DNA of 38,621 nt from Novacetimonas hansenii JCM 7643 (GTDB lineage Bacteria; Pseudomonadota; Alphaproteobacteria; Acetobacterales; Acetobacteraceae). The stretch's first letter is position 1, and each line of letters begins with the position of its first letter. This document shows, in pieces, positions 17,465-38,621 of this stretch. A model generated the notes under the pieces. The model was not told where the DNA came from. It did not search any database and worked only from the letters and a program-made list of their open reading frames with translations. The translations under genes and the position numbers were made by a program. Location: contig NZ_BANE01000008.1 of the NCBI RefSeq assembly GCF_000964405.1, positions 1-38,621 of the forward strand, read 5' to 3'.

Positions 17465-19108
17465 ATGACCCATCCCACGTCCCGTTCCTTTCCGCGGGGA
17501 GCGGCGCTGCTGAACGATCCTGCCGCGAACAAGGGAACCGCCTTCAGCGCGGAGGAACGGCGCGTACTGGATATCGAAGGGCTGCTGCCGCCACAGATCG
17601 AAACACTGGAACGTCAGGCGGAACGCGTGTTCCGCCATCTTGACGCCAAACCGAACGACCTTGAACGCTATATCTACCTCTCCAGCCTTGGCGACCGGAA
17701 TGAAACCCTGTTTTACAAGGTCGTCATGTCCGACCCGGCACGATTCGTGCCCATCATCTATGCCCCGACGCTGGGTGCGGTGTGCAAGGCGTTCAGCCAC
17801 CTGTACCGCCGCCCGCGCGGCATGTATATCAGCCTGGAACATAAGGGGCGCATCGCCTCTGTCCTGCGTAACTGGCCCGAACGCAATGTCCGCTTTATCT
17901 GCGTAACAACCGGCGGGCGCATCCTTGGCCTTGGCGATATCGGGGTCAACGGCATGGGCATCCCGATTGGCAAGCTGCAGCTCTATACCGCATGCGGGGC
18001 CGTGCCACCACACACCACCCTGCCGATCCAGTTGGACATCGGCACGACCAACGCGGCACTGCGGGCGGACCCGCTTTATCTCGGGCTGCGGCACGAACCG
18101 CCGGAACAGGCGGAACTTGATGCGTTCGTAGAGGAATTCGTCAATGCCGTACAGGAGGTCTTCCCCCCCTGCTGCATCCATTTCGAGGATTGGAAAGGTA
18201 CGGATGCGATCCGCTACCTTGCGCATTATCGCGACCGTGTTTTGTGCTACAATGACGACATCCAGGGCACTGCGGCTGTCACACTGGCCGGCTTGACCAC
18301 GGCCCTACAGATTCTGGAAGCCCCTTTGTCGGCCCAGAAAGTTGTGTTTCTGGGCGCGGGGTCATCAGGGCTGGGTATTGCGGACCTGCTTGTACGCGCC
18401 ATGCAGCGCGAGGGCCTGTCGGAAGATGCCGCGCGCGCGCGCATCACCATGATGGACAAGGACGGGCTGCTGGTCACATCGCGCACCGACCTGTCGGAAC
18501 AGCAGCGCCGCTATGCCCGCGATGATACGCCCACGACAGACCTTCTTGACGTGATTACGCGGGTGCGTCCCACGATCCTGATCGGGGTATCCACCATGGG
18601 GGATGCCTTCACACAGGCGGTGGTCGAACGCATGAGCGCGATCAACAGCCGTCCCATCATCTTTGCCCTGTCGATCCCCAATGCCGAATGCACGGCGGAA
18701 CAGGCTTATACCTGGTCAAAGGGACAGGCCCTGTATGCCGCCGGCATCCAGTATCCAGTGGTCCAGGTCGGGGACCGGTCCTTCCATCCGGGGCAGGCCA
18801 ACAATTTCTATATCTTTCCGGGGCTCGGCCTGGCCACCTATGCCACATGCCCACGCCACATCACCGATGATATCATCATCGAGGCCGCACATGCGCTTGC
18901 GGATCAGGTGGATACCGCAAGCCGTGCGCGCGGGCGGCTGTTCCCGCCACAGGACCAGATCGTGGAGGTGGAAATCACCTCGGCCTGTCGCCTTGCGGAA
19001 TATATCTTTGACCATGACATGGCCCATGTCGAACGCCCCGACGATATCCGCAAATGGGTCGAGGGCATGATCTATACCCCGACATACAAGCCCATCGCAC
19101 TGGAGTGA
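17465..19108 (+). CDS. maeA: NAD-dependent malic enzyme
   Basis: A 547-residue enzyme that oxidatively decarboxylates L-malate to pyruvate and CO2, making NADH. It aligns end to end with what I recall of E. coli SfcA/MaeA. Shared features are LLNxPxxNKGTAFS, the catalytic Tyr in IYAPTLG, Lys in GIPIGKLQLYTACG, the metal-binding acidic pair in FEDW, CYNDDIQGTAAV and the dinucleotide motif FLGAGSSGLGIADL. The NNFYIFPGLGLA segment keeps its Asn pair. An oddity is LSIPNAECT where the family has LSNPTxxAECT (two residues fewer, and the malate-binding Asn replaced by Ile). The start ATG at 17465 has GGAG ten bases upstream. No phosphotransacetylase domain is fused, unlike MaeB. Confidence 0.92.
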   Translation: MTHPTSRSFPRGAALLNDPAANKGTAFSAEERRVLDIEGLLPPQIETLERQAERVFRHLDAKPNDLERYIYLSSLGDRNETLFYKVVMSDPARFVPIIYAPTLGAVCKAFSHLYRRPRGMYISLEHKGRIASVLRNWPERNVRFICVTTGGRILGLGDIGVNGMGIPIGKLQLYTACGAVPPHTTLPIQLDIGTTNAALRADPLYLGLRHEPPEQAELDAFVEEFVNAVQEVFPPCCIHFEDWKGTDAIRYLAHYRDRVLCYNDDIQGTAAVTLAGLTTALQILEAPLSAQKVVFLGAGSSGLGIADLLVRAMQREGLSEDAARARITMMDKDGLLVTSRTDLSEQQRRYARDDTPTTDLLDVITRVRPTILIGVSTMGDAFTQAVVERMSAINSRPIIFALSIPNAECTAEQAYTWSKGQALYAAGIQYPVVQVGDRSFHPGQANNFYIFPGLGLATYATCPRHITDDIIIEAAHALADQVDTASRARGRLFPPQDQIVEVEITSACRLAEYIFDHDMAHVERPDDIRKWVEGMIYTPTYKPIALE

Positions 19109-19473
19109 ATCCAGACATATGCCTTTTCCCAAAGATCCATATCTTTGCGCAGCGTTTGAGAGACTGCTTGAAAAGTCATTCTTGATAACATACTGAAATT
19201 ATAAAGATTTTTTTCTGAAGCTTTTTCCAAAAAGCTTCAGAAGACGCCGCCTTTCTGAAATAAAAAGCGGCGTCCAGAAACTTTTCTTATTTTTTCTCAA
19301 TGAGCTGTTTTCAGACACGCTCCGAGAACAGCGACGCCATAAACATTTATAATGTCAGTAGGTGACTGGTCCTGCCATTTCAAATGGCCTGCCAAAGAAT
19401 GACAAACCTTCTGATACCGCCCCCCTTTCAGGACTCTGGGGCTGCGACCTCTCTGCGGGGCTATCGCGGCAGT
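19109..19473. other. Gene-free region between maeA and ynfA
   Basis: These 365 bases hold cloverleaf repeat copy C (19160-19290) and a 15-base perfect palindrome, GCCATTTCAAATGGC, at 19374-19388. The genes either side converge, so both ends need terminators. I see no coding frame with a ribosome site. Confidence 0.5.
19160..19290. repeat. Cloverleaf-type intergenic repeat, copy C
   Basis: A conserved leader beginning GAGACTGCTTGAAAAGTC precedes a perfect 12-bp hairpin, CTGAAGCTTTTT/AAAAAGCTTCAG with a CC loop (19214-19239). A second hairpin follows, GACGCCGC/GCGGCGTC, then a right arm CCAGAAACTTTTC. About 85 bases are nearly identical to the copy at 38536. Confidence 0.8.
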
Positions 19474-19812
19474 TTATGCATTGCGGGGATGGAACAGGAT
19501 CACCCCTGCCCCGATCAGGCAGATCGCAGCCCCCAGGATTTCCCAACGTGTCGGGGCATATCCCTCCACCACGCGCATCCATGTCAGGGATGCAAGGATA
19601 TAGATCCCGCCATAGGCCGCATAGGCCTGCCCCGCCGTATCGGTATCAATGCGTGTCAGCAACCACGCAAACGCCACCAGCGCCGCCATGCCAGGGATCA
19701 GACAGGCGATGGACCGCCCCAGCCGCAACCACGCCCAAAAAGCAAAACAGCCACCAATTTCACAAAAACCAGCCACCAGATAAATGGCAAGGGACAGGAT
19801 ATACTGCTTCAC
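19474..19812 (-). CDS. ynfA: YnfA/UPF0060 family small membrane protein
   Basis: A 112-residue inner-membrane protein of four helices. [50 protein letters not shown] and the final [14 protein letters not shown] match E. coli YnfA along its length. The family is distantly related to small multidrug-resistance-like exporters, but no substrate is firmly known to me for this group. GTG at 19812 is chosen, with GGAAG about ten bases upstream, because the product then has the family length. A longer frame upstream would read through unrelated sequence. The gene stands alone between maeA and tRNA-Lys, and the two flanking gaps contain repeats. Confidence 0.88.
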
Positions 19813-20050
19813 TGACGACGCTTCCTTTCCTGATATCAGAACCGGCCATATCCACAGCAGAACACCCCGTCCCCGTCCAATGGCTGGAACCTGCATATCC
19901 ACGGTACATGACCTGAATGGTAACGGGATTTTGGTGGAGATTTTTCAAAAATCTGCAACAACGTCGCCCTTGTCGAAAAGGCAGCATGGCACCGTTTATG
20001 ATCTTTATCGGGCATCCCGGACGGATATTGCCGGATTGTTGTCCAGATAC
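19813..20050. repeat. Degenerate cloverleaf repeat copy H within a gene-free stretch
   Basis: At about 19920-19990 a decayed copy is visible: ATTTTGGTGGAG, then GATTTTTC/AAAAATC, then GTCGCC/AAAGGC. It retains family order but mismatched arms. The remaining bases from ynfA to the tRNA-Lys terminator contain no supported gene. Confidence 0.4.
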
Positions 20051-20084
20051 AAAAAATCCCGGCATCAGATGATACCGGGATTTT
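20051..20084 (-). terminator. Rho-independent terminator of tRNA-Lys
   Basis: On the minus strand AAAATCCCGG and CCGGGATTTT form a 10-bp stem around a 13-base loop, with the T-run completing a TTTTTT tail. It is about 33 bases beyond the CCA end of tRNA-Lys. Confidence 0.8.
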
Positions 20085-20116
20085 CATACGGCAATCGGCG
20101 TTACACCGGAATTCTG

Positions 20117-20192
<76 letters not shown>

Positions 20193-20503
20193 ACAGACTT
20201 TCCCCTTTCGGGTGAGGGGCTTTTACCAAGACAGGCCCATGGCGACAAGGGGTTTTTTGAATATTTTTTCCAACATAGTGAACCCACCCCATGGATCACC
20301 ATCACCCCACCTGAACGTCCACAGGTTCATCGTTTGTTTTTTAACGCCCGAAAGAACACACATTCAAAACCCGCAGAAACATTCCCCCGATCGGGCCATG
20401 GGCAGAGGTTTGAAACCACCCCGTATAATTCCAGAAGCGGCCTGGTCCTTTTCCGCAGGAAAGAACCCTCTGCCCCCTTCCCTCATGCCTCATGCCTCAT
20501 GCC
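20193..20503. other. Gene-free region between tRNA-Lys and parB
   Basis: This stretch carries the tRNA-Lys promoter at 20220-20248, a CCCCT/AGGGG hairpin near 20200, AT-rich runs, and a 7-base tandem array ending at the parB stop. A short plus-strand frame exists but has no ribosome site and I do not call it. Confidence 0.4.
20220..20248 (-). promoter_or_regulatory. Candidate sigma-70 promoter of tRNA-Lys
   Basis: On the minus strand TTGTCG (20248-20243) and TAAAAG (20225-20220) have a 17-base spacer and lie about 28 bases before the mature tRNA 5' end. Each matches four of six consensus bases. Confidence 0.4.
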
Positions 20504-20508
20504 TCATG
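20481..20508. repeat. Four tandem copies of CCTCATG at the parB stop
   Basis: Four perfect 7-base units, CCTCATG, abut the 3' end of parB. On the parB strand the TGA stop lies inside the first unit (CATGAGG), and each further unit repeats it. Copy-number changes would therefore alter only untranslated sequence, not the protein. Confidence 0.85.
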
Positions 20509-21403
20509 CCTGCAACAGCCGCAGCAACCCATCGAACTGGTCCAGGGAACGGTAATCCACACGCAGCGAACCACCCTTGCCATCAAAGGTAATCTGGACC
20601 TTCAACCCGAGCTTTGCCGTCAGGTCACGTTCCAACGACCCGATTTCCGGGTCTTTATGCGCCTGCTCCTCCCGCTTTGCCGCGACCTTGTTCTTTGCAT
20701 CCGTTTTTTTCGACAGGGCCTCGGTCTGGCGGACGTTGAGCCCCTGTTTCAGCACAACCTTCAGCGCCGCGACAGGATCGGGATGCGCCAGAAGCGCACG
20801 TGCATGACCCGCCGACAGTTCCCTGTCCCGCACGGCATCACGCACAGGCGGGGGAAGTTGCAACAGGCGCACCATATTGGCGACATGGGGGCGTGACTTG
20901 CCAATGGCCCCCGCCAGTTCTTCCTGTGTCAGGCGGTAATCGTCGAGCAGACGTTGCAGGCCCTCCGCCTCTTCCATGGCATTCAGGTCTGCGCGTTGCA
21001 GGTTTTCCACCAGCGCCGCCGCCATCGCATCGCCATCGTCAAGGGCACGGATATGGACCGGCACCTCATGCAGGGACGCAAGCTGGGCGGCACGCCAGCG
21101 TCGTTCCCCGGCGATGATCTGGAACATATTGGGACGATCCGGGTGGGGACGCACAAGGATCGGCTGCAAAATACCCCGCGTACGGATGGAATCCGCCAGT
21201 TCTTCCAACGCTTCGGGGGCCATGTGCTGGCGCGGCTGGAACGGGCCGGGTTCAAGGACATCCACCGGAAGCACAGAGCCACCATCCATATTTTTACGCG
21301 GTTCCAGCCCCGGTGCAGGATTGAGCATGTTCACCTGATCGCCGAGCAACGCGGCAAGCCCCCGGCCCAATCGTGGGCGGGCGGCATCCTTCTTGGGTTT
21401 CAT
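20504..21403 (-). CDS. parB: Chromosome partition protein ParB
   Basis: A 299-residue CTP-dependent DNA clamp that loads at parS and spreads along DNA to segregate chromosome origins. The N-terminal LGRGLAALLGD motif contacts ParA. The CTP-binding/box II motif is GERRWRAAQL near 104-113, and the helix-turn-helix is LTQEELAGAIGKSRPHVANM near 155-175. The C-terminal dimerisation region ends at LLRLLQA. ATG overlaps the parA stop (ATGA), so it is translationally coupled to parA. It is the last gene of the mnmE-mnmG-rsmG-parA-parB run; a 7-base tandem repeat lies directly after its stop. Two perfect parS sites within this operon support chromosomal function. Confidence 0.96.
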   Translation of the reverse strand: MKPKKDAARPRLGRGLAALLGDQVNMLNPAPGLEPRKNMDGGSVLPVDVLEPGPFQPRQHMAPEALEELADSIRTRGILQPILVRPHPDRPNMFQIIAGERRWRAAQLASLHEVPVHIRALDDGDAMAAALVENLQRADLNAMEEAEGLQRLLDDYRLTQEELAGAIGKSRPHVANMVRLLQLPPPVRDAVRDRELSAGHARALLAHPDPVAALKVVLKQGLNVRQTEALSKKTDAKNKVAAKREEQAHKDPEIGSLERDLTAKLGLKVQITFDGKGGSLRVDYRSLDQFDGLLRLLQA

Positions 21404-22227
21404 CCCTGCTTTTTCCCTTTCCGGCCCGCCCTGAGTGCAAGGCGTGAGGTCACTTCATCCGACAGCGCCCTATAGGCCTGGCTGCCGGAGGAACGGGCGT
21501 CGTAAAACATCACGGCCTGCCCATGGCTCTGTGCTTCGGAAATGCGAATATTGCGCGGAATGACCGTCTCCAGCACGCGATCGCCAAAGAAGCTGCGGGC
21601 GTCCGCCGCCACCAGTTCCGACAGGTTGTTACGCCGGTCATACATCGTCAGCACGATTCCCTCCAGCTTCAGCGCCGGGTTCAGGGACTTGCACAGGCTG
21701 TTGACGGTGCGCACCAACTGGCTGATCCCTTCCAGCGCAAAAAACTCGCACTGCAACGGCACGATCACCGCCTGTGCGGCCACAAGCGCATTCAGCGTCA
21801 ACAGGCCAAGGCTGGGTGGGCAATCAATCAGGATGACATCATATTCACCGCCAATCCGCGCAATGGCATCACGCAGGCGATATTCCCGTCGATCCGACAT
21901 GACCAGTTCCAGTTCCGCCCCGGCCAGTTCGGTATCCGCCGCAATAACCGACAGGCCGGGAACGGATGTTTCCTGGATCAGGTCAGCCGCCGGCGCATCC
22001 TCCCCAATCAGGGCATAGGTCCCACGACGCCGGTTTTCATAACCGATCCCCAACCCGGTGGACGCATTTCCCTGCGGGTCGATATCAATCAGCAGAACAC
22101 GGAACCCACCTGCCGCAAGACCGGCGGCAAGGTTGATGGCAGTAGTTGTTTTCCCCACCCCGCCCTTCTGGTTCGCAAGGGCGATGATGCGGGGGGCATG
22201 CGCGGCCTTATCGACCGGATGATGCAT
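21400..22227 (-). CDS. parA: Chromosome partition ATPase ParA
   Basis: A 275-residue deviant Walker ATPase that moves ParB-parS complexes over the nucleoid. The deviant P-loop is [15 protein letters not shown] near residues 15-29 (two lysines), and Walker B is [26 protein letters not shown] follows the P-loop as in all Soj-like ParA proteins. ATG at 22227 is one choice; a GTG at 22245 would add six residues and overlap rsmG further, and neither has a good ribosome site. Either start overlaps the end of rsmG, and its stop overlaps parB (ATGA). Plasmid ParA paralogues differ in sequence and context; the gidA/gidB location shows this is chromosomal. Confidence 0.95.
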
Positions 22228-22852
22228 GGTTGTGGTCTGTGACACGCCTTATATCGCTCAATCTAAGAATGATACCATCCGCATCAGTGCGGCTTGGAAT
22301 TCGAGTCACCGCCATACGCCAGTCGGCATTGGCGGCATTGAGTTCTTCGTCTGCGTTCTTTCCCTTCAGAAACAGGCAGAATCCTTCCTTATCCAGAAAT
22401 CGTACGCCCCATTGCAATAACTGCGGCAATGGGGCCAGGGCACGCGCGGTGACGATATCGGCAGGCCCGGCCTCCGCCGCCTCGATCCGCGCGGCGATGA
22501 CACGGGTGCGCACACCCGCCACACGGGAGGCCTCGCGCAGGAACGCGGCCTTGCGTTGGTCAGATTCAATCAGCGTGACATGCGCGTCAGTCGCCATCGC
22601 AATCACCAGCCCGGGAAATCCCCCGCCCGACCCCATATCCACAACCCGCGCACCCTGTGGGATCAGGGCCGCAAGTTGCAGGCTGTCGGCAATATGGCGG
22701 GGCCATAACTGCGCCAGGTCCGGACGGGACACAAGGTTGATGCGCGCATTCCAGCGCACCAGCAGGTCAGCATAGGCCGTCAGGCGATCGCGTGTTTCAC
22801 GTGAAACATCATCCAGCACACCTGCATGCCCCATCATGTCTGCCCCCGACAT
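22208..22852 (-). CDS. rsmG: 16S rRNA (guanine-527-N7) methyltransferase
   Basis: A 214-residue GidB/RsmG enzyme that methylates G527 in the 530 loop of 16S rRNA; loss gives low-level streptomycin resistance in other bacteria. [12 protein letters not shown] near 35-46 and the SAM-binding [17 protein letters not shown] near 68-84 are diagnostic, as is [11 protein letters not shown]. Codons for VSRET at residues 16-20 coincide with a perfect parS palindrome. The ATG overlaps the mnmG stop as TGATG and the gene end overlaps parA, so all three are tightly coupled. The start is fixed by that overlap. Confidence 0.95.
22793..22808. promoter_or_regulatory. parS site 1 (inside rsmG)
   Basis: TGTTTCACGTGAAACA is the exact 16-base consensus recognised by chromosomal ParB. 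It is embedded in the rsmG coding sequence, encoding the VSRET segment. The parB gene itself lies about 1.4 kb away. Confidence 0.92.
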
Positions 22853-33693: not shown

Positions 33694-34995
33694 ATGCATC
33701 TCGCCGAACTCAAGGCCAAAACACCAGCAGATCTTCTGGCTTATGCCGAAGGTCTGAACATTGAAAACGCATCATCCCTGCGCAAGCAGGAACTGATGTT
33801 CACCATCCTCAAGACACTGGCCGAGAATGACCAGGCGATTTATGGGGATGGAACACTCGAAATCCTGTCGGATGGCTTCGGCTTCCTCCGCTCGCCAGAG
33901 GCAAATTACCTGCCCGGTCCCGACGATATCTATATCTCCCCCAGCCAGGTGCGGCGCTTTGGCCTGCGCACCGGCGATACGGTGGAAGGGCAGATCCGCG
34001 CGCCCCGCGATGGGGAACGTTACTTTGCGCTGCTCAAGGTCGATACGATCAATTTCGAACCGCCCGAGGCCGTACGCCAGCGCATCAATTTCGATAACCT
34101 GACGCCGCTATATCCCGAACGCCGCCTGCAGATGGAGGTCGAGAATACCGCCGTAGGACCGGCCGAAGGCAGTGCGAAAGGCAAGGGCAAGGGGCCGGCG
34201 CGCGACTTTACCCCACGCGTGATCGACCTTGTGTCCCCCATCGGGATGGGGCAACGCGCGTTGATCGTGGCGCCGCCACGGACCGGCAAGACCGTGATGC
34301 TGCAGAGTATCGCGTCCTCCATTTCCGCAAACCACCCCGAAGTGTTCCTGATCGTCCTTCTGATCGACGAACGCCCCGAGGAAGTGACCGACATGGCCCG
34401 CTCGGTAAGGGGGGAGGTCGTGTCCTCCACCTTCGACGAACCGGCGACGCGTCATGTGCAGGTGACCGAAATGGTGCTGGAAAAGGCCAAGCGCCTGGTC
34501 GAGCACAAACGCGACGTGGTTATCCTGCTGGATTCGATCACCCGTCTGGCGCGTGCCTACAACACGGTCGTGCCGTCATCGGGCAAGGTGCTGACCGGTG
34601 GTGTGGATGCCAACGCGTTGCAGCGCCCCAAGCGCTTCTTTGGCGCGGCGCGTAACATTGAGGAAGGCGGGTCGCTGACGATCATCGCAACCGCCCTGAT
34701 CGATACCGGTAGCCGCATGGATGAAGTGATCTTTGAAGAGTTCAAGGGCACCGGCAACTCCGAACTGATCCTTGACCGCAAGCTGGCGGACAAGCGCACG
34801 TTCCCGGCCATCGACATCACCAAGAGTGGTACCCGCAAGGAAGAGCTGCTGGTCGATCGCGCCGACCTGTCGAAGATGTGGGTCCTGCGCCGTATCCTGG
34901 CGCCGATGGGCACGATGGATGCAATGGACTTCCTGCTCGACAAGCTGAAATACAGCAAGACGAACAAGGATTTCTTCGACGCGATGAATACGTAA
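33694..34995 (+). CDS. rho: Transcription termination factor Rho
   Basis: A 433-residue hexameric RNA helicase that ends transcripts at rut sites. An N-terminal [19 protein letters not shown] helical region precedes the cold-shock RNA-binding fold ([31 protein letters not shown] in two parts). The P-loop is APPRTGKT near residues 190-197, with LIDERPEEV, and the catalytic [11 protein letters not shown] and Q-loop region VDANALQ. AAGG is about ten bases before the ATG. A 14-bp-stem terminator follows 30 bases after the stop. A weak TTGACT-17-TATCGA promoter-like pair lies about 180 bases upstream (33486-33514). Confidence 0.97.
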
Positions 34996-35025
34996 GCCAC
35001 CGTCGTAGCAATCCGAACCGTGACG

Positions 35026-35060
35026 AAAACCCCTCCTGCGCCATGCAGGAGGGGTTTTTT
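35026..35060 (+). terminator. Strong rho-independent terminator of rho
   Basis: AAAACCCCTCCTGC (35026-35039) and GCAGGAGGGGTTTT (35045-35058) make a 14-bp stem with loop GCCAT, ending in six T residues. On the plus strand it ends rho; the convergent glycosyltransferase gene ends at 35171. Confidence 0.92.
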
Positions 35061-35170: not shown

Positions 35171-36115
35171 TTATGCAAGTATACGATTACGAAACTGCTC
35201 GTTCTCGTCCATTTCCTGCCCGAATGCCCGCGCAAGAGAAAATGAATATTCCAGAACCAGCTTGATACATTTTGCCTTGTAATCTGCGTCTTCGGTATAT
35301 TTCAGGTCACCACCATCATACTTCATCATATCCATTGTATAATCGCTGTTAGGGGTTCGTTCGAAAAAACCCTTGTCATTAATGATCCGATTGGGGTCGT
35401 TCATCAAAATCCGCAGTGGTTCGATATAATGCGATCCCGTGCCTTTTGTGACCTCACGCCGCCCCGCCGCAGTGATTTTCAATCGCATGATGATCCATTT
35501 ATATATGTCCTGCCAGCCGGACCGCCGGGGATAATGCGCAATGCACAGGTTGCTGCCCCCAAAGGCATGCAGTTCGATACCATCACGATATGCGGTATGG
35601 TTGCCTTCACTGATTTGGATATTGCCAGGGATCTTGCCCCGGACGGCAACTTTCAGGACGCCGATATTCTCTATCGTTCTCCATATCATACGCTGGGGCA
35701 CGACCCGTTCTTCGGTTTTATCAAATATTGTATCCATATAGTTTCTGATGGGAAGAAGGATGGATTCAAAATTGGGAGGAACGGTTTTTATGAAATTCGA
35801 AAACCCCTCAACCCTGCCACGCATATCAATGAATTCATCAGCATCAATGAAAAATACCCAATCCGCATCAAAATCTCTGCATGCAGTATTGTACAGGAAT
35901 GTATTTCTTTCGCGTTCACTCGACACAATACATGGCTTCTCTATCAACGTGATTGCCAGACCCTCCTGAATCATGTCTTCAATGATCCCTAATGTCCTGT
36001 CCGCGCTGCCATCATCGAGGATAATAATACGGTCCAGATGAGCAAGGTGATGTCTTATATTTGCTTCAATAACATCATCTTCGTTAAGAAGCCTCATCAC
36101 AGCGACCACGTTCAT
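35171..36115 (-). CDS. Glycosyltransferase, GT2-like (Glyco_tranf_2_4 type)
   Basis: A 314-residue protein with an N-terminal nucleotide-sugar-binding fold: VVAVMRLLNEDDVI, ILDDGSADRTLGIIEDM near 32-48 and the metal-binding DADEF near 91-95. Such enzymes transfer a sugar from a UDP/GDP donor onto a lipid or glycan. The central part (HAFGGSNLCIAHYPRRSGWQ in two stretches) is typical of the WcaA-related branch that modifies cell-surface polysaccharides. AAGGA lies eight bases before ATG at 36115. It is AT-richer than the rest of the window. Acceptor and donor cannot be told. It stands beside the FkbH-like gene in the same direction, with a remnant frame and repeats between them. Confidence 0.82.
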   Translation of the reverse strand: MNVVAVMRLLNEDDVIEANIRHHLAHLDRIIILDDGSADRTLGIIEDMIQEGLAITLIEKPCIVSSERERNTFLYNTACRDFDADWVFFIDADEFIDMRGRVEGFSNFIKTVPPNFESILLPIRNYMDTIFDKTEERVVPQRMIWRTIENIGVLKVAVRGKIPGNIQISEGNHTAYRDGIELHAFGGSNLCIAHYPRRSGWQDIYKWIIMRLKITAAGRREVTKGTGSHYIEPLRILMNDPNRIINDKGFFERTPNSDYTMDMMKYDGGDLKYTEDADYKAKCIKLVLEYSFSLARAFGQEMDENEQFRNRILA

Positions 36116-36125
36116 TTTATGTTCC

Positions 36126-36358
36126 TTATCCCTGATTTTTATATTTTATATATGCTTCATAAACAGAAAATAAATCATATGCCGGTCCCGTGTGAAAACT
36201 GCGTGACACGAATCGGATGACGGGATCAGAATCACTGGACATAATCCGTTCCTGCTCGCGCATTTTATAAAAATATCTTTTAATAATCACAGATTTCCTA
36301 AAAATATTATGATGACTCTCTTTCAAAAATCCTCGAAAGATATTGCCTCCTGAATACG
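36126..36358 (-). pseudogene. Apparent 3' remnant of a coding gene, 66+ residues
   Basis: A minus-strand frame ends with TAA at 36126, ten bases before the glycosyltransferase ATG. It is open upstream to 36360, where the CTAG end of the compound hairpin element supplies TAG. The translated stretch (PYSGGNIFRGFLKES near the start, then VSRSFHTGPAYDLFSVYEAY near the end) looks like protein rather than noise. A TTG at 36326 with GAGGA very close is the only start candidate, giving 66 residues. I read it as the tail of a gene truncated where the element sits, though a real small protein is possible. I recognise no family. Confidence 0.4.
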
Positions 36359-36359
36359 G

Positions 36360-36467
36360 CTAGAGCAGATCCTGTTTGAATGCCGACATTCAAACAGGTG
36401 AAGATGCTCGTAAAGACAACAAACTGGAACAGTTCCACCGAACCGGTTTTCGGTGGAAATGCTCTAG
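36360..36467. repeat. Compound hairpin element with CTAGAGCA/TGCTCTAG ends
   Basis: A 108-base element with 8-base terminal inverted repeats. Inside are a perfect 12-bp stem CCTGTTTGAATG/CATTCAAACAGG (36371-36398), a 5-bp AACTG/CAGTT stem (36422-36434), and a perfect 10-bp stem TTCCACCGAA/TTCGGTGGAA (36433-36458). It has no coding capacity and resembles a miniature palindromic element. Confidence 0.7.
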
Positions 36468-36642
36468 CATTAAGAAATTTTCAATCCATCACCTATGATT
36501 CCCTGAAATCGTTCCAGATATTTTTTAAAAACAGCCGATTGGTGAAACAATAAAAGTCCTTGGCGCGTATTTTTTCCAAAAAATACTATTCTTCCAATTT
36601 TTTGCAAAAATCCGCGCCAAGAACTTTTATGTTTCCCGACCA
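36468..36642. other. Gene-free stretch with inverted repeat copy E
   Basis: From 36535 to about 36650 lie long imperfect arms. The left arm runs CCGATTGGTGAAACAATAAA then AGTCCTTGGCGCG, and the right arm runs CGCGCCAAGAACTTTTATG then TTTCCCGACC. They enclose TATTTTTT/AAAAAATA and ATTTTT/AAAAAT hairpins. It has the cloverleaf architecture but its own sequence. Its right end overlaps the final codons of the FkbH-like gene and may end that transcript. Confidence 0.6.
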
Positions 36643-38379
36643 TTAATCGGTTTTTTCGACTTCCAATGCATATTTATCGCAAATATCCATGATTTCCGTA
36701 GCCATTTTCAGATATACTTCACGGGAGAAATGAACTCCGTGATCATCTGGCGCAGCGAGGTCATCGGTGGATCTGACGTATTTTCCGTAATCTACAAGAT
36801 CAAAGCCATATATTTTCGACAGGGGAACGACAATCCTGTTGATGTTCCCATAAACCGACCTGATCCAATTATCCGTACCTATCCGTTCATTCAGGACCAG
36901 CACGATAACCTTTTTACCCTTTAATTTTTCGAATAGTTTACAGACATCGGCCATGAACATCCCGATGTCATGATGGGCGAAAAATTCAAACTCATTTTGC
37001 ATGAATTCCCATTCGCTTTCCGAAAAGCCAGGATCGCGGCCAAATTTCTGGACAAGTGTTTCATAGGATGTTTCACTGAAATCCCGCCCGGCCAGAAAAT
37101 CATTGCATAATGAAAGCGTTACTCCGGTGGAACGGGACCTATATAAATGTGCTGCATATTCAACGGAAAATGACAGGACGTAAATATCGGCTTCCCCGCT
37201 TATGACTGCCGACTCCAGATAATTTTCCGGGAAAATACTTGTTGCCTGCAAAAGCTTGCGTCCCTCCGGGGTCTGCAAGGCCTCAGTCACCGCAACAGTC
37301 CTGACCCAAGGGCTGAAAGCCCATGATTTATAAGCAAGCGGGAATTCCCCGATCACATTATAACGGGCCCGGAAATAATGTTCCATGGACGTGAAATCAC
37401 ATGCGCCACGCAGGCATACTTTCAAATTCTTTGCATATTCACTGATAAAATTATTTGAAACATCATCAACATCGTCAACGATCTCTATCCAGTCCACATG
37501 CCCGTCCAACGAGGATATGACATCCCCCACGACATGCACATGTGGCCGCATGAGATGGTTCCAACAGAACTGTTCCACCCCCATGCTCATGATGCGGCAG
37601 GAAAACAGGAAATGTGTTGCCCGGCCTTCACCAATCAGGAAAAACCCACATATTCCATAGTTACCATATTTATCAGAAACTTTTACATATCCAGAGATTG
37701 CTGGAAACCGTTCCGAAAACTCATTTTGGAACATATTCCACGCTGCCCCCCTATCTTCTGGCCAGCGATTTTTGGTGAAATTGAGTTGGTTTGTTCTGTT
37801 GACCAGTTCATGTATGCGATCAAACTCTTTTTCTATATCATAATGAAAACTGACCCTGATCCCACTCTGTTTCAGAAAACTGATATTATCCCCCTGTATG
37901 TCCTGCCGATCTTTATGCTTTTCCTCCAGCACCTTATACCTTGCAAGGCGATCCATCCCTGCATCCGGTTTGCCCTGGAACCTGTCATCTTCAAGCATGT
38001 TGCCAATAATTCCAGGATCGGCAACCTGCATGCCTGGATAAAAAAACAGGACCTCGTTCAGGTTCATCGGATTATCATCAATGAACATCATCGTTTCGGG
38101 ACGCAGATTCGTCGCTTCGACGATTGCCTTTATCATTGGTCCCTTGGGGGCAAAGGCGATCTGTGGGAAGATAAAATACTCCCATGCACCAATTTTCTTC
38201 AGTTCAGCTTCGGCATCCCCGAAATTATTTTTCGAACATATGGAATTGACAATCCCCCGCTCCGACAGGGCCTTGATCAGGGTGATGTGCTTTTCAACTG
38301 GATGGATGCCCCCTTCACTCAGGGTCCCGTTCCAGAATGTTTCATCCAGATCCCAAATGACCAACCGGACAGGTTCCAT
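36643..38379 (-). CDS. HAD-IIIC/FkbH-like protein with probable SGNH-like C-terminal region
   Basis: A 578-residue protein in three parts. Residues 1-130 are a HAD-superfamily IIIC domain: WDLDETFWNGTLSEGG (first Asp near 10), the SICSKNNFGDAE block, and FIDDNPMNLNEV. Residues about 150-290 match FkbH's second region (ELVNRTNQLNFTKNRW, VSDKYGNYGICGFF), which loads glyceryl or acyl units onto carriers. Residues about 350-578 look like an SGNH/GDSL-type fold with DDHGVHFSREVYLKMATEI near the end; the catalytic Ser is not clear. FkbH relatives prime 3-carbon units, and fusion with an esterase/acyltransferase-like region suggests surface glycan acylation. AGGAAAA precedes ATG at 38379. AT-rich composition suggests transfer. 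Confidence 0.75.
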   Translation of the reverse strand: MEPVRLVIWDLDETFWNGTLSEGGIHPVEKHITLIKALSERGIVNSICSKNNFGDAEAELKKIGAWEYFIFPQIAFAPKGPMIKAIVEATNLRPETMMFIDDNPMNLNEVLFFYPGMQVADPGIIGNMLEDDRFQGKPDAGMDRLARYKVLEEKHKDRQDIQGDNISFLKQSGIRVSFHYDIEKEFDRIHELVNRTNQLNFTKNRWPEDRGAAWNMFQNEFSERFPAISGYVKVSDKYGNYGICGFFLIGEGRATHFLFSCRIMSMGVEQFCWNHLMRPHVHVVGDVISSLDGHVDWIEIVDDVDDVSNNFISEYAKNLKVCLRGACDFTSMEHYFRARYNVIGEFPLAYKSWAFSPWVRTVAVTEALQTPEGRKLLQATSIFPENYLESAVISGEADIYVLSFSVEYAAHLYRSRSTGVTLSLCNDFLAGRDFSETSYETLVQKFGRDPGFSESEWEFMQNEFEFFAHHDIGMFMADVCKLFEKLKGKKVIVLVLNERIGTDNWIRSVYGNINRIVVPLSKIYGFDLVDYGKYVRSTDDLAAPDDHGVHFSREVYLKMATEIMDICDKYALEVEKTD

Positions 38380-38621
38380 TATATTTTCCTAGGAAGCGTT
38401 ACTGATCAACATGATGGTCCCTTATGTTATAAGGTTTTTGTTAATATATACTTCACAGCCATACCGAATGGTGACGTCCCTGATGCCCCTGCCCAAGTTT
38501 GTCCCAGCTTCCTGCCCACATTTAAAAACATCTAAGAGACTGTTTGAAAAGTCAGCTTCGATAACATACTGAAATTCTAAAGGTTTTTGGTGAAGCTTTT
38601 TCCAAAAAGCTTCAGAAGACG
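38380..38621. repeat. FkbH upstream region and cloverleaf repeat copy D, cut by window end
   Basis: Bases 38380-38535 are AT-rich upstream DNA of the FkbH-like gene, with no gene seen. From 38536, GAGACTGTTTGAAAAGTC, a conserved GATAACATACTGAAATT segment, and the TGAAGCTTTTT/AAAAAGCTTCA hairpin match copy C at 19160. The window ends inside the element. Confidence 0.7.

Follow-up and report, generated by a model that had tools for sequence, protein, structure and literature searches.

FkbH-like enzymes are known for supplying glycerate-derived units to polyketide synthases by way of carrier proteins. In Novacetimonas hansenii JCM 7643, a gene was identified that codes for a protein of 578 amino acids (aa) in which an FkbH-like module is followed by a further domain, and which lies near rho and beside a glycosyltransferase gene. 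The window, which is the whole stretch of DNA analysed (38,621 nucleotides), corresponds to the entire contig C460 of a draft genome (G000) in 467 contigs. The domain make-up, the fold, the conserved residues and the cluster context of the protein were computed, and they revealed a HAD-IIIC phosphatase domain, a second FkbH module and a tail of the SGNH type carrying a cysteine. This arrangement is real, well-conserved and undescribed in the open-licence literature searched, in which no description was found for FkbH with SGNH, HAD-IIIC with polysaccharide, FkbH with O-antigen, or SGNH with a catalytic cysteine and acyltransferase. In our tentative reading, the genes beside rho belong to a variable cassette for a surface glycan, in which this protein by itself both loads and transfers an acyl group; we give this reading somewhat less than an even chance. 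The fusion gene and its domains are the following.

36643..38379, minus strand: fusion of HAD-IIIC, FkbH (GNAT-like) and Cys-SGNH, 578 aa, assigned by family, fold and alignment
37969..38379, minus strand: HAD-IIIC phosphatase domain, residues 1-137, assigned by fold match, with Asp10, Asp12, Lys79, Asp101 and Asp102 conserved
37525..37953, minus strand: second FkbH module, about residues 143-285, which we take to be GNAT-like, with an invariant Ser-Cys261-Arg, assigned by TIGR01686 match and alignment
36661..37437, minus strand: SGNH-fold domain, residues 315-573, with the codon of Cys327 (the serine position) at 37399-37401 and that of His550 at 36730-36732

The Tail: An SGNH Fold with a Cysteine

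The full-length protein was modelled with a mean predicted local distance difference test score (pLDDT) of 93.5 and a predicted template modelling score (pTM) of 0.81, and the tail (residues 312-578, 71-row alignment) with values of 95.8 and 0.92, respectively. When the tail was compared with solved structures by VIA-align, the top matches among those listed were 4h08 (Z 13.3, 165 residues, 2.8 Å), PatB (7trr; Z 13.3, 175 residues, 3.0 Å) and OatA (6wn9; Z 13.0, 145 residues, 2.6 Å). According to the structure matches, PatB and OatA are peptidoglycan O-acetyltransferases. In a Foldseek search of the tail, the leading rows were acylhydrolases and lipases. A sequence profile of the tails matched PAF acetylhydrolase with an E value of 7.7e-7, with the invariant histidine laid on the AHLSR motif. 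As modelled, the tail is an SGNH fold, as was proposed for this three-part fusion in a preliminary description made from the DNA alone. No characterised orthologue was found in the searches made, in agreement with the same description, in which the enzyme was considered uncharacterised.

SGNH enzymes carry Gly-x-Ser at the transition from the first strand to the following helix. In the full-length model, a strand (residues 320-324) leads into Gly325-Ala-Cys327 and a helix of residues 327-337. The window protein was aligned with 75 relatives, drawn from the best 80 of 175 loci after removal of L079, L109, L111, L127 and L129, which were short or open-ended. Gly325, Cys327 and His550 were identified in 76 of the 76 rows, with the restriction that in one row (L124) the reading frame is lost towards the end, which makes its histidine uninformative. 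The rows include near-copies, so that all counts given here are of sequences and not of independent events. The residue preceding Cys327 is Gly in 56 rows, Ala in 15 and Pro in 5, and Gly-Ser-Cys is present at the motif in L111, one of the loci left out. The Ser/His/Asp triad envisaged in the preliminary description is absent: the fold and the block V histidine are present, but the block I serine nucleophile is replaced by cysteine in every row, and an acidic residue three positions before the histidine was identified in 31 of the 76 rows.

The Loading Half

The N-terminal part matched TIGR01681 (HAD-IIIC) with 36.6 bits, above the cut-off of 35.75. For residues 1-137, the top structural matches were MDP-1 and 3slr, with a Z score of 17.2 each. 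The aspartates of the DxDxT motif, Asp10 and Asp12, are present in 75 of the 76 rows, the remaining row being gapped at this site, and Lys79, Asp101, Asp102 and Ser260-Cys261-Arg262 are retained throughout the alignment. In FkbH enzymes, a glyceryl thioester is held on this conserved cysteine. A separate alignment of the HAD and GNAT-like modules, which takes in 14 relatives of the N-terminal type described below and one FkbH-type protein from Streptomyces, shows Cys261 in all of its 77 rows. The loading half looks intact at the level of its residues, because Asp10, Asp12 and Cys261 have been kept.

A Probable Variable Surface-Glycan Cassette beside rho

Two further features define the rho side of the locus.

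35026..35058, plus strand: perfect hairpin with 14-bp arms behind rho, from an inverted-repeat scan, at the left edge of the AT-rich block
35171..36115, minus strand: GT2-type glycosyltransferase, 314 aa, PF13704 and PF00535

The names rho and corA-like for the flanking genes are presumed here. The hairpin is our own reading of the rho terminator, and it is absent from the list obtained in the terminator scan. Behind rho, the G + C content (GC), calculated in steps of 1 kb, falls from 0.608 at 34001-35000 to 0.394-0.461 from 35001 onward. At third codon positions (GC3), values of 0.495 and 0.499 were obtained for the glycosyltransferase gene and the fusion gene, compared to 0.758 for rho and 0.748 for the adjoining corA-like gene. 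The glycosyltransferase matched both of its Pfam families above the cut-offs (PF13704 with 48.2 bits versus 27.5, PF00535 with 37 bits versus 23.3). A drop in base composition behind rho, AT-rich codon use and a GT2-like gene co-directional with a HAD-IIIC/FkbH-type gene had been described before, and all of these were confirmed, with both genes on the minus strand and matched by Pfam or NCBIfam families.

The same genes are carried by Gluconacetobacter entanii LTH 4560 (N. entanii) and Novacetimonas maltaceti LMG 1529 (loci L066 and L067; genomes G002 and G003), in which the GT2 orthologues are 89% identical and adjoin rho. The pair of glycosyltransferase and fusion genes is thus present at the rho-flanking site in two of the three other members of the genus. 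In the third one (G001), rho is present and both genes of the pair are absent. Beyond rho, at about 1.1 kb, the first open reading frame (ORF) to reach 150 codons codes for a UDP-glucose/GDP-mannose dehydrogenase with a GC3 of 0.441 (L064, G001:C19, 733-1920). The rho-flanking site fits a variable surface-glycan site, because the pair is found in two of three congeners and other AT-rich content in one. Contrary to the outcomes by which the preliminary description would have been refuted, the locus is not shared by all relatives and its base composition deviates from the native one.

In N. maltaceti, the gene order is rho, GT2 (314 aa), FkbH-SGNH (578 aa), and genes for proteins of 989 aa, 1003 aa and 142 aa, followed by a 564-aa protein on the opposite strand. 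For the 142-aa and 564-aa proteins, no Pfam match was obtained at E ≤ 0.01. The counterparts of the two large proteins in the N. hansenii genome contain GT2 and GT4-type domains and are encoded at the end of contig C371, with 77% identity over query residues 5-989 for the 989-aa protein and 80% for the other. The cluster hence continues past the contig end, where the preliminary description had suggested looking for further genes, with two giant glycosyltransferases. Inward from the large genes, C371 carries the genes for a 534-aa protein without a Pfam match, a second FkbH-SGNH protein, a two-component system, DnaK and DnaJ. The second HAD-GNAT-Cys-SGNH protein (L049, G000:C371, 7296-9059) is 38% identical to the first. 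GC3 on C371 is 0.535-0.580 for the cassette genes, whereas the histidine kinase gene and dnaK have values of 0.775 and 0.776. Judged by gene order, the cassette very probably reaches from the two-component system as far as rho, with the junction of C371 and C460 inferred from synteny.

In N. entanii, the 989-aa counterpart is split over two frames and the 1003-aa counterpart consists of two ORFs of one frame with a stop in frame (L045, 10643-13560 and 13588-16599), and these giant glycosyltransferase genes are broken or misassembled.

Distribution and Descent

In a family scan, 61 of 150 genomes matched the protein at E ≤ 0.001 and 16 of them scored above 200 bits, the genome of origin included; in one of the 16 (G008, L030) the tail differs, as judged by eye. 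Within the order, the tail profile matched 31 of 200 genomes, 20 of them above 150 bits (again including the genome of origin), and at the phylum level the only match among 299 genomes was that genome itself. Loci coding for near full-length relatives include metagenome-assembled genomes labelled Clostridia, Bacteroidales, Acidimicrobiaceae and Gastranaerophilales, the labels being used as given. In a quick tree of the 77 HAD-GNAT modules, a branch with a support of 91 separates the 60 rows with this tail from the other rows, and the Streptomyces row forms a long branch. For this tree, 17 of the 76 rows, mostly near-copies, had been left out beforehand, and the second copy from the N. hansenii genome had been added.

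In other FkbH relatives in the family, an SGNH-like region was recognised by eye ahead of the HAD module. The set of these N-terminal regions, A5, comprised 8 of the 14 relatives; the presence of Gly-x-Cys in this set was by choice and that of the invariant histidine was not. Left out of A5 were L037 (Gly-Ala-Cys by eye), L039 (cut short), and L038, L042, L043 and L044, in which by eye no Gly-x-Cys is present at this site and three of which have serine. A simple move of the SGNH-like region from the N-terminus to the C-terminus was considered and rejected, since the profile comparison gave a probability of 25% over 35 columns and a recent common origin is unsupported.

Two further domain arrangements were observed. 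On a plasmid of Komagataeibacter saccharivorans (L015, 13633-16719), a DUF1796 domain (putative papain-like peptidase) and TPR repeats are fused ahead of HAD-GNAT-SGNH. In L070-L076 and L080, a stretch of the type W-x-W ... FGADG ... W ... W-x-F-E lies about 120-175 residues before the HAD module, and a similar stretch was seen by eye in L031, an FkbH protein of the N-terminal type.

Glycosyltransferases adjoin the fusion gene in the window, in the congeners and in K. saccharivorans. Some of the neighbour clusters obtained for the loci resemble antisense ORFs or housekeeping genes by eye. With respect to a role in defence, no PADLOC match was obtained at E ≤ 0.01.

Proposed Mechanism

In the mechanism that we propose, the HAD-IIIC/FkbH half would take an activated three-carbon acid and remove its phosphate. 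By analogy to the FkbH family, the best guess for the donor is D-glycerate from 1,3-bisphosphoglycerate. The acyl group would be held as a thioester on Cys261, from which Cys327 of the SGNH half would accept it with His550 as the base, and the SGNH half would then esterify a hydroxyl group of the glycan that the adjacent glycosyltransferases assemble. In its most specific form, this would be a carrier-free glycan acylation in one polypeptide, in which a glyceroyl (or similar) thioester is formed on Cys261 from a glycolytic acyl phosphate, is relayed to Cys327 by thioester exchange and esterifies the growing surface glycan. We consider this specific form to be rather unlikely. If true, the SGNH acyltransferases would gain a cysteine branch that replaces both acyl carrier protein (ACP) and coenzyme A (CoA). 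Should the fusion acylate glycans directly, glycolysis would be tied to surface decoration in one enzyme; this would also account for a group of HAD-IIIC proteins recorded as hypothetical or under another domain, and would add to the SGNH fold a cysteine version whose donor is predicted.

Several points weigh against a combined acyl loader and transferase acting on glycans. The chemistry is a proposal, and the donor is deduced from family analogy. The match to TIGR01686 (FkbH; residues 5-276, E value 3.1e-35) reached 121.8 bits, below the curated cut-off of 146.65. Foldseek gave one PDB match of the tail at E ≤ 0.001 (4ppy, 7.3e-4, TM 0.45/0.55), so that the VIA-align Z scores and the sequence profile are the basis for assigning the SGNH fold. 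No neighbour family was identified in more than 14 of the 80 loci, the enzyme itself being present in 78, and for the relative in Loktanella salsilacus no glycosyltransferase is present among 15 annotated surrounding features. In N. entanii, the giant glycosyltransferase genes are interrupted, yet the fusion gene is open. WcbI, a CoA-binding protein, showed no acetyltransferase activity in the assays reported for it (PMC4104973). Finally, the searches for an ACP failed their positive control. An E. coli AcpP query gave no match among 1050 predicted ORFs; against 9788 ORFs it gave one weak match (L088, E value 0.029) and missed the Streptomyces ACP, and a Streptomyces ACP query gave none. A Pfam scan of the longer cluster proteins likewise revealed no ACP.

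Alternative Readings

The two halves might act separately. The HAD-IIIC/FkbH module would then produce an acyl-S-carrier for another pathway, the Cys-SGNH domain would be a CoA-using O-acyl (for example, acetyl) transferase or esterase, and the two would be joined solely for co-expression. We regard this as unlikely, though it is the alternative that survives best. FkbH-like enzymes have been proposed to load stand-alone ACPs (PMC7489565), and a gene for a phosphopantetheine-binding protein lies near the Streptomyces FkbH-type gene (L146). For WcbI, CoA is reported to be bound at a cysteine near a histidine (PMC4104973), and the region recognised by eye as SGNH-like ahead of the HAD module in other FkbH relatives suggests that such a partner may occupy more than one position. 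However, the fused architecture forms one side of a branch that extends across several labelled phyla, which argues for a coupled function, and no ACP was recognised in the scanned cluster proteins or the 80 loci, which is a weak test.

It is improbable that the tail is a hydrolase which removes an acyl group in editing or deacylation. Many of the solved SGNH matches listed are named esterases or lipases, and 14 of the 71 tails, the window tail not among them, weakly match Pfam Lipase_GDSL_2 at E ≤ 0.01. Against a hydrolase stand the complete replacement of serine by cysteine, the fusion of the tail to an acyl-loading module, and the high rank of the acetyltransferases PatB and OatA in the list of solved matches.

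Least probable is a catalytically dead tail that binds the glycan or tethers the loader to the glycosyltransferases, for which the missing nucleophile serine and the inconstant acidic residue near the histidine would speak. Against it, Gly325, Cys327 and His550 are the sole invariant columns of the 71 tails at a mean column identity of 25%, and catalytic residues of this kind are usually lost in dead domains.

Intergenic Gap and Dispersed Repeats

The remaining features of the locus lie between the glycosyltransferase and fusion genes and near the contig end; for the last three, no strand is assigned.

36126..36326, minus strand: chance ORF of 66 codons, without family match
36360..36468: copy of a dispersed repeat of about 108 bp, with the ends CTAGAGCA...TGCTCTAG, from genome self-comparison and inverted-repeat scan
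36550..36630: imperfect inverted repeat of 33 bp (hairpin), immediately 3' of the FkbH-SGNH gene, from the inverted-repeat scan
38534..38600: copy of a dispersed repeat of about 66 bp near the contig end, from genome self-comparison

The gap between the two genes comprises 527 bp in the window and 184 bp in both congeners carrying the pair. Conservation is limited to the part adjoining the glycosyltransferase gene, and the remainder of the gap in the window contains the repeat of about 108 bp and the strong hairpin, which correspond to the hairpin elements that had been noted here earlier. The supposed gene remnant between the genes has to be abandoned. For the ORF at 36126-36326, neither Pfam nor NCBIfam gave a match at E ≤ 1, and its similarity to relatives is confined to the last 23 codons and falls in the short leader ahead of the glycosyltransferase gene; it is considered to be a chance ORF.

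In the genome, the repeat of about 108 bp recurs at least 12 more times in copies of 93-120 bp with 83-91% identity, a lower bound since 40 of 261 candidates were scored. Copies are located on contigs C408, C289, C356, C329, C415, C405, C418, C383, C436, C377 and C115 of G000. The repeat of about 66 bp has at least 32 other matches in the genome, 9 of which begin in the opening 100 bases of a contig. This placement probably explains the stop of the assembly at the contig end, and the repeat probably fragments the assembly. An open 65-aa ORF at 38422-38619 is partly made of this repeat and does not count as evidence of a gene.

A promoter scan gave 13 sites compared to 7.6 ± 3.0 in shuffled sequences and was not used as evidence. 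Elsewhere in the window, a second dip in GC (0.51-0.54) was observed at 18500-20500, beside parB/parA genes (20504-22245), so that the window may lie near the chromosome origin.

Comparison with Known Systems

With the FkbH-type glyceryl transferase/phosphatases (TIGR01686, for example, Mad7 and Mad14), the fusion shares the HAD-IIIC and GNAT-like module, the aspartate pair and Ser-Cys-Arg. It differs from the FkbH enzymes of polyketide synthesis by the additional C-terminal SGNH domain, the glycosyltransferase neighbours, the TIGR01686 score below the cut-off and, in a weak test, by no ACP gene being recognised beside the fusion gene. The closest solved structures to residues 3-139 are MDP-1 and the phosphatase domain of BF1531 of Bacteroides (3slr; 27-28% identity, Z 17.2). 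In BF1531, another region precedes the aligned phosphatase domain, which begins at chain residue 221, whereas in the fusion the extra domain lies behind the module.

A precedent for a glycerate-type acyl group is the di-O-methylglycerate on the flagellin glycan of Campylobacter, as described in two reports (PMC7099621, PMC3068675). In the first of these, an fkbH-domain gene, cj1302, is named in a comparison of Campylobacter strains (PMC7099621); in the part available, the second ties the modification to Cj1295 and leaves Cj1302 unmentioned (PMC3068675), and no shared fusion is shown.

PatB, OatA, BT3161 and PAF acetylhydrolase share the fold of residues 315-573 and the position of the catalytic histidine. 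The tail differs from the SGNH enzymes by the cysteine in place of the block I serine, with an identity of 8-17% in the 50 VIA-align rows listed. The Gly-x-Cys motif suggested membership in the WcbI family, which we take to be included in Pfam-A. No WcbI family was identified among the Pfam matches of 17 members (E ≤ 1) or of the 71 tails (E ≤ 0.01), and no WcbI title among the 50 Foldseek and 50 VIA-align rows listed. Membership is thus unsupported by the matches listed, although this does not prove the fold to be different. In the available part of its description, WcbI is a protein of capsule synthesis with about 310 residues and without mention of a HAD module (PMC4104973), whereas the fusion comprises 578 aa with HAD. 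The same text places a reactive cysteine of WcbI in a crevice where the first strand ends, close to a histidine (PMC4104973); in the model of the fusion, Cys327 likewise follows the first strand of the tail, with His550 as its putative partner. It also gives 4h08 as the best PDBeFold match of WcbI (PMC4104973), which is the best VIA-align match of the tail among those listed. By analogy, WcbI, with CoA held on a cysteine near a histidine, is the nearest functional parallel to the tail of the fusion.

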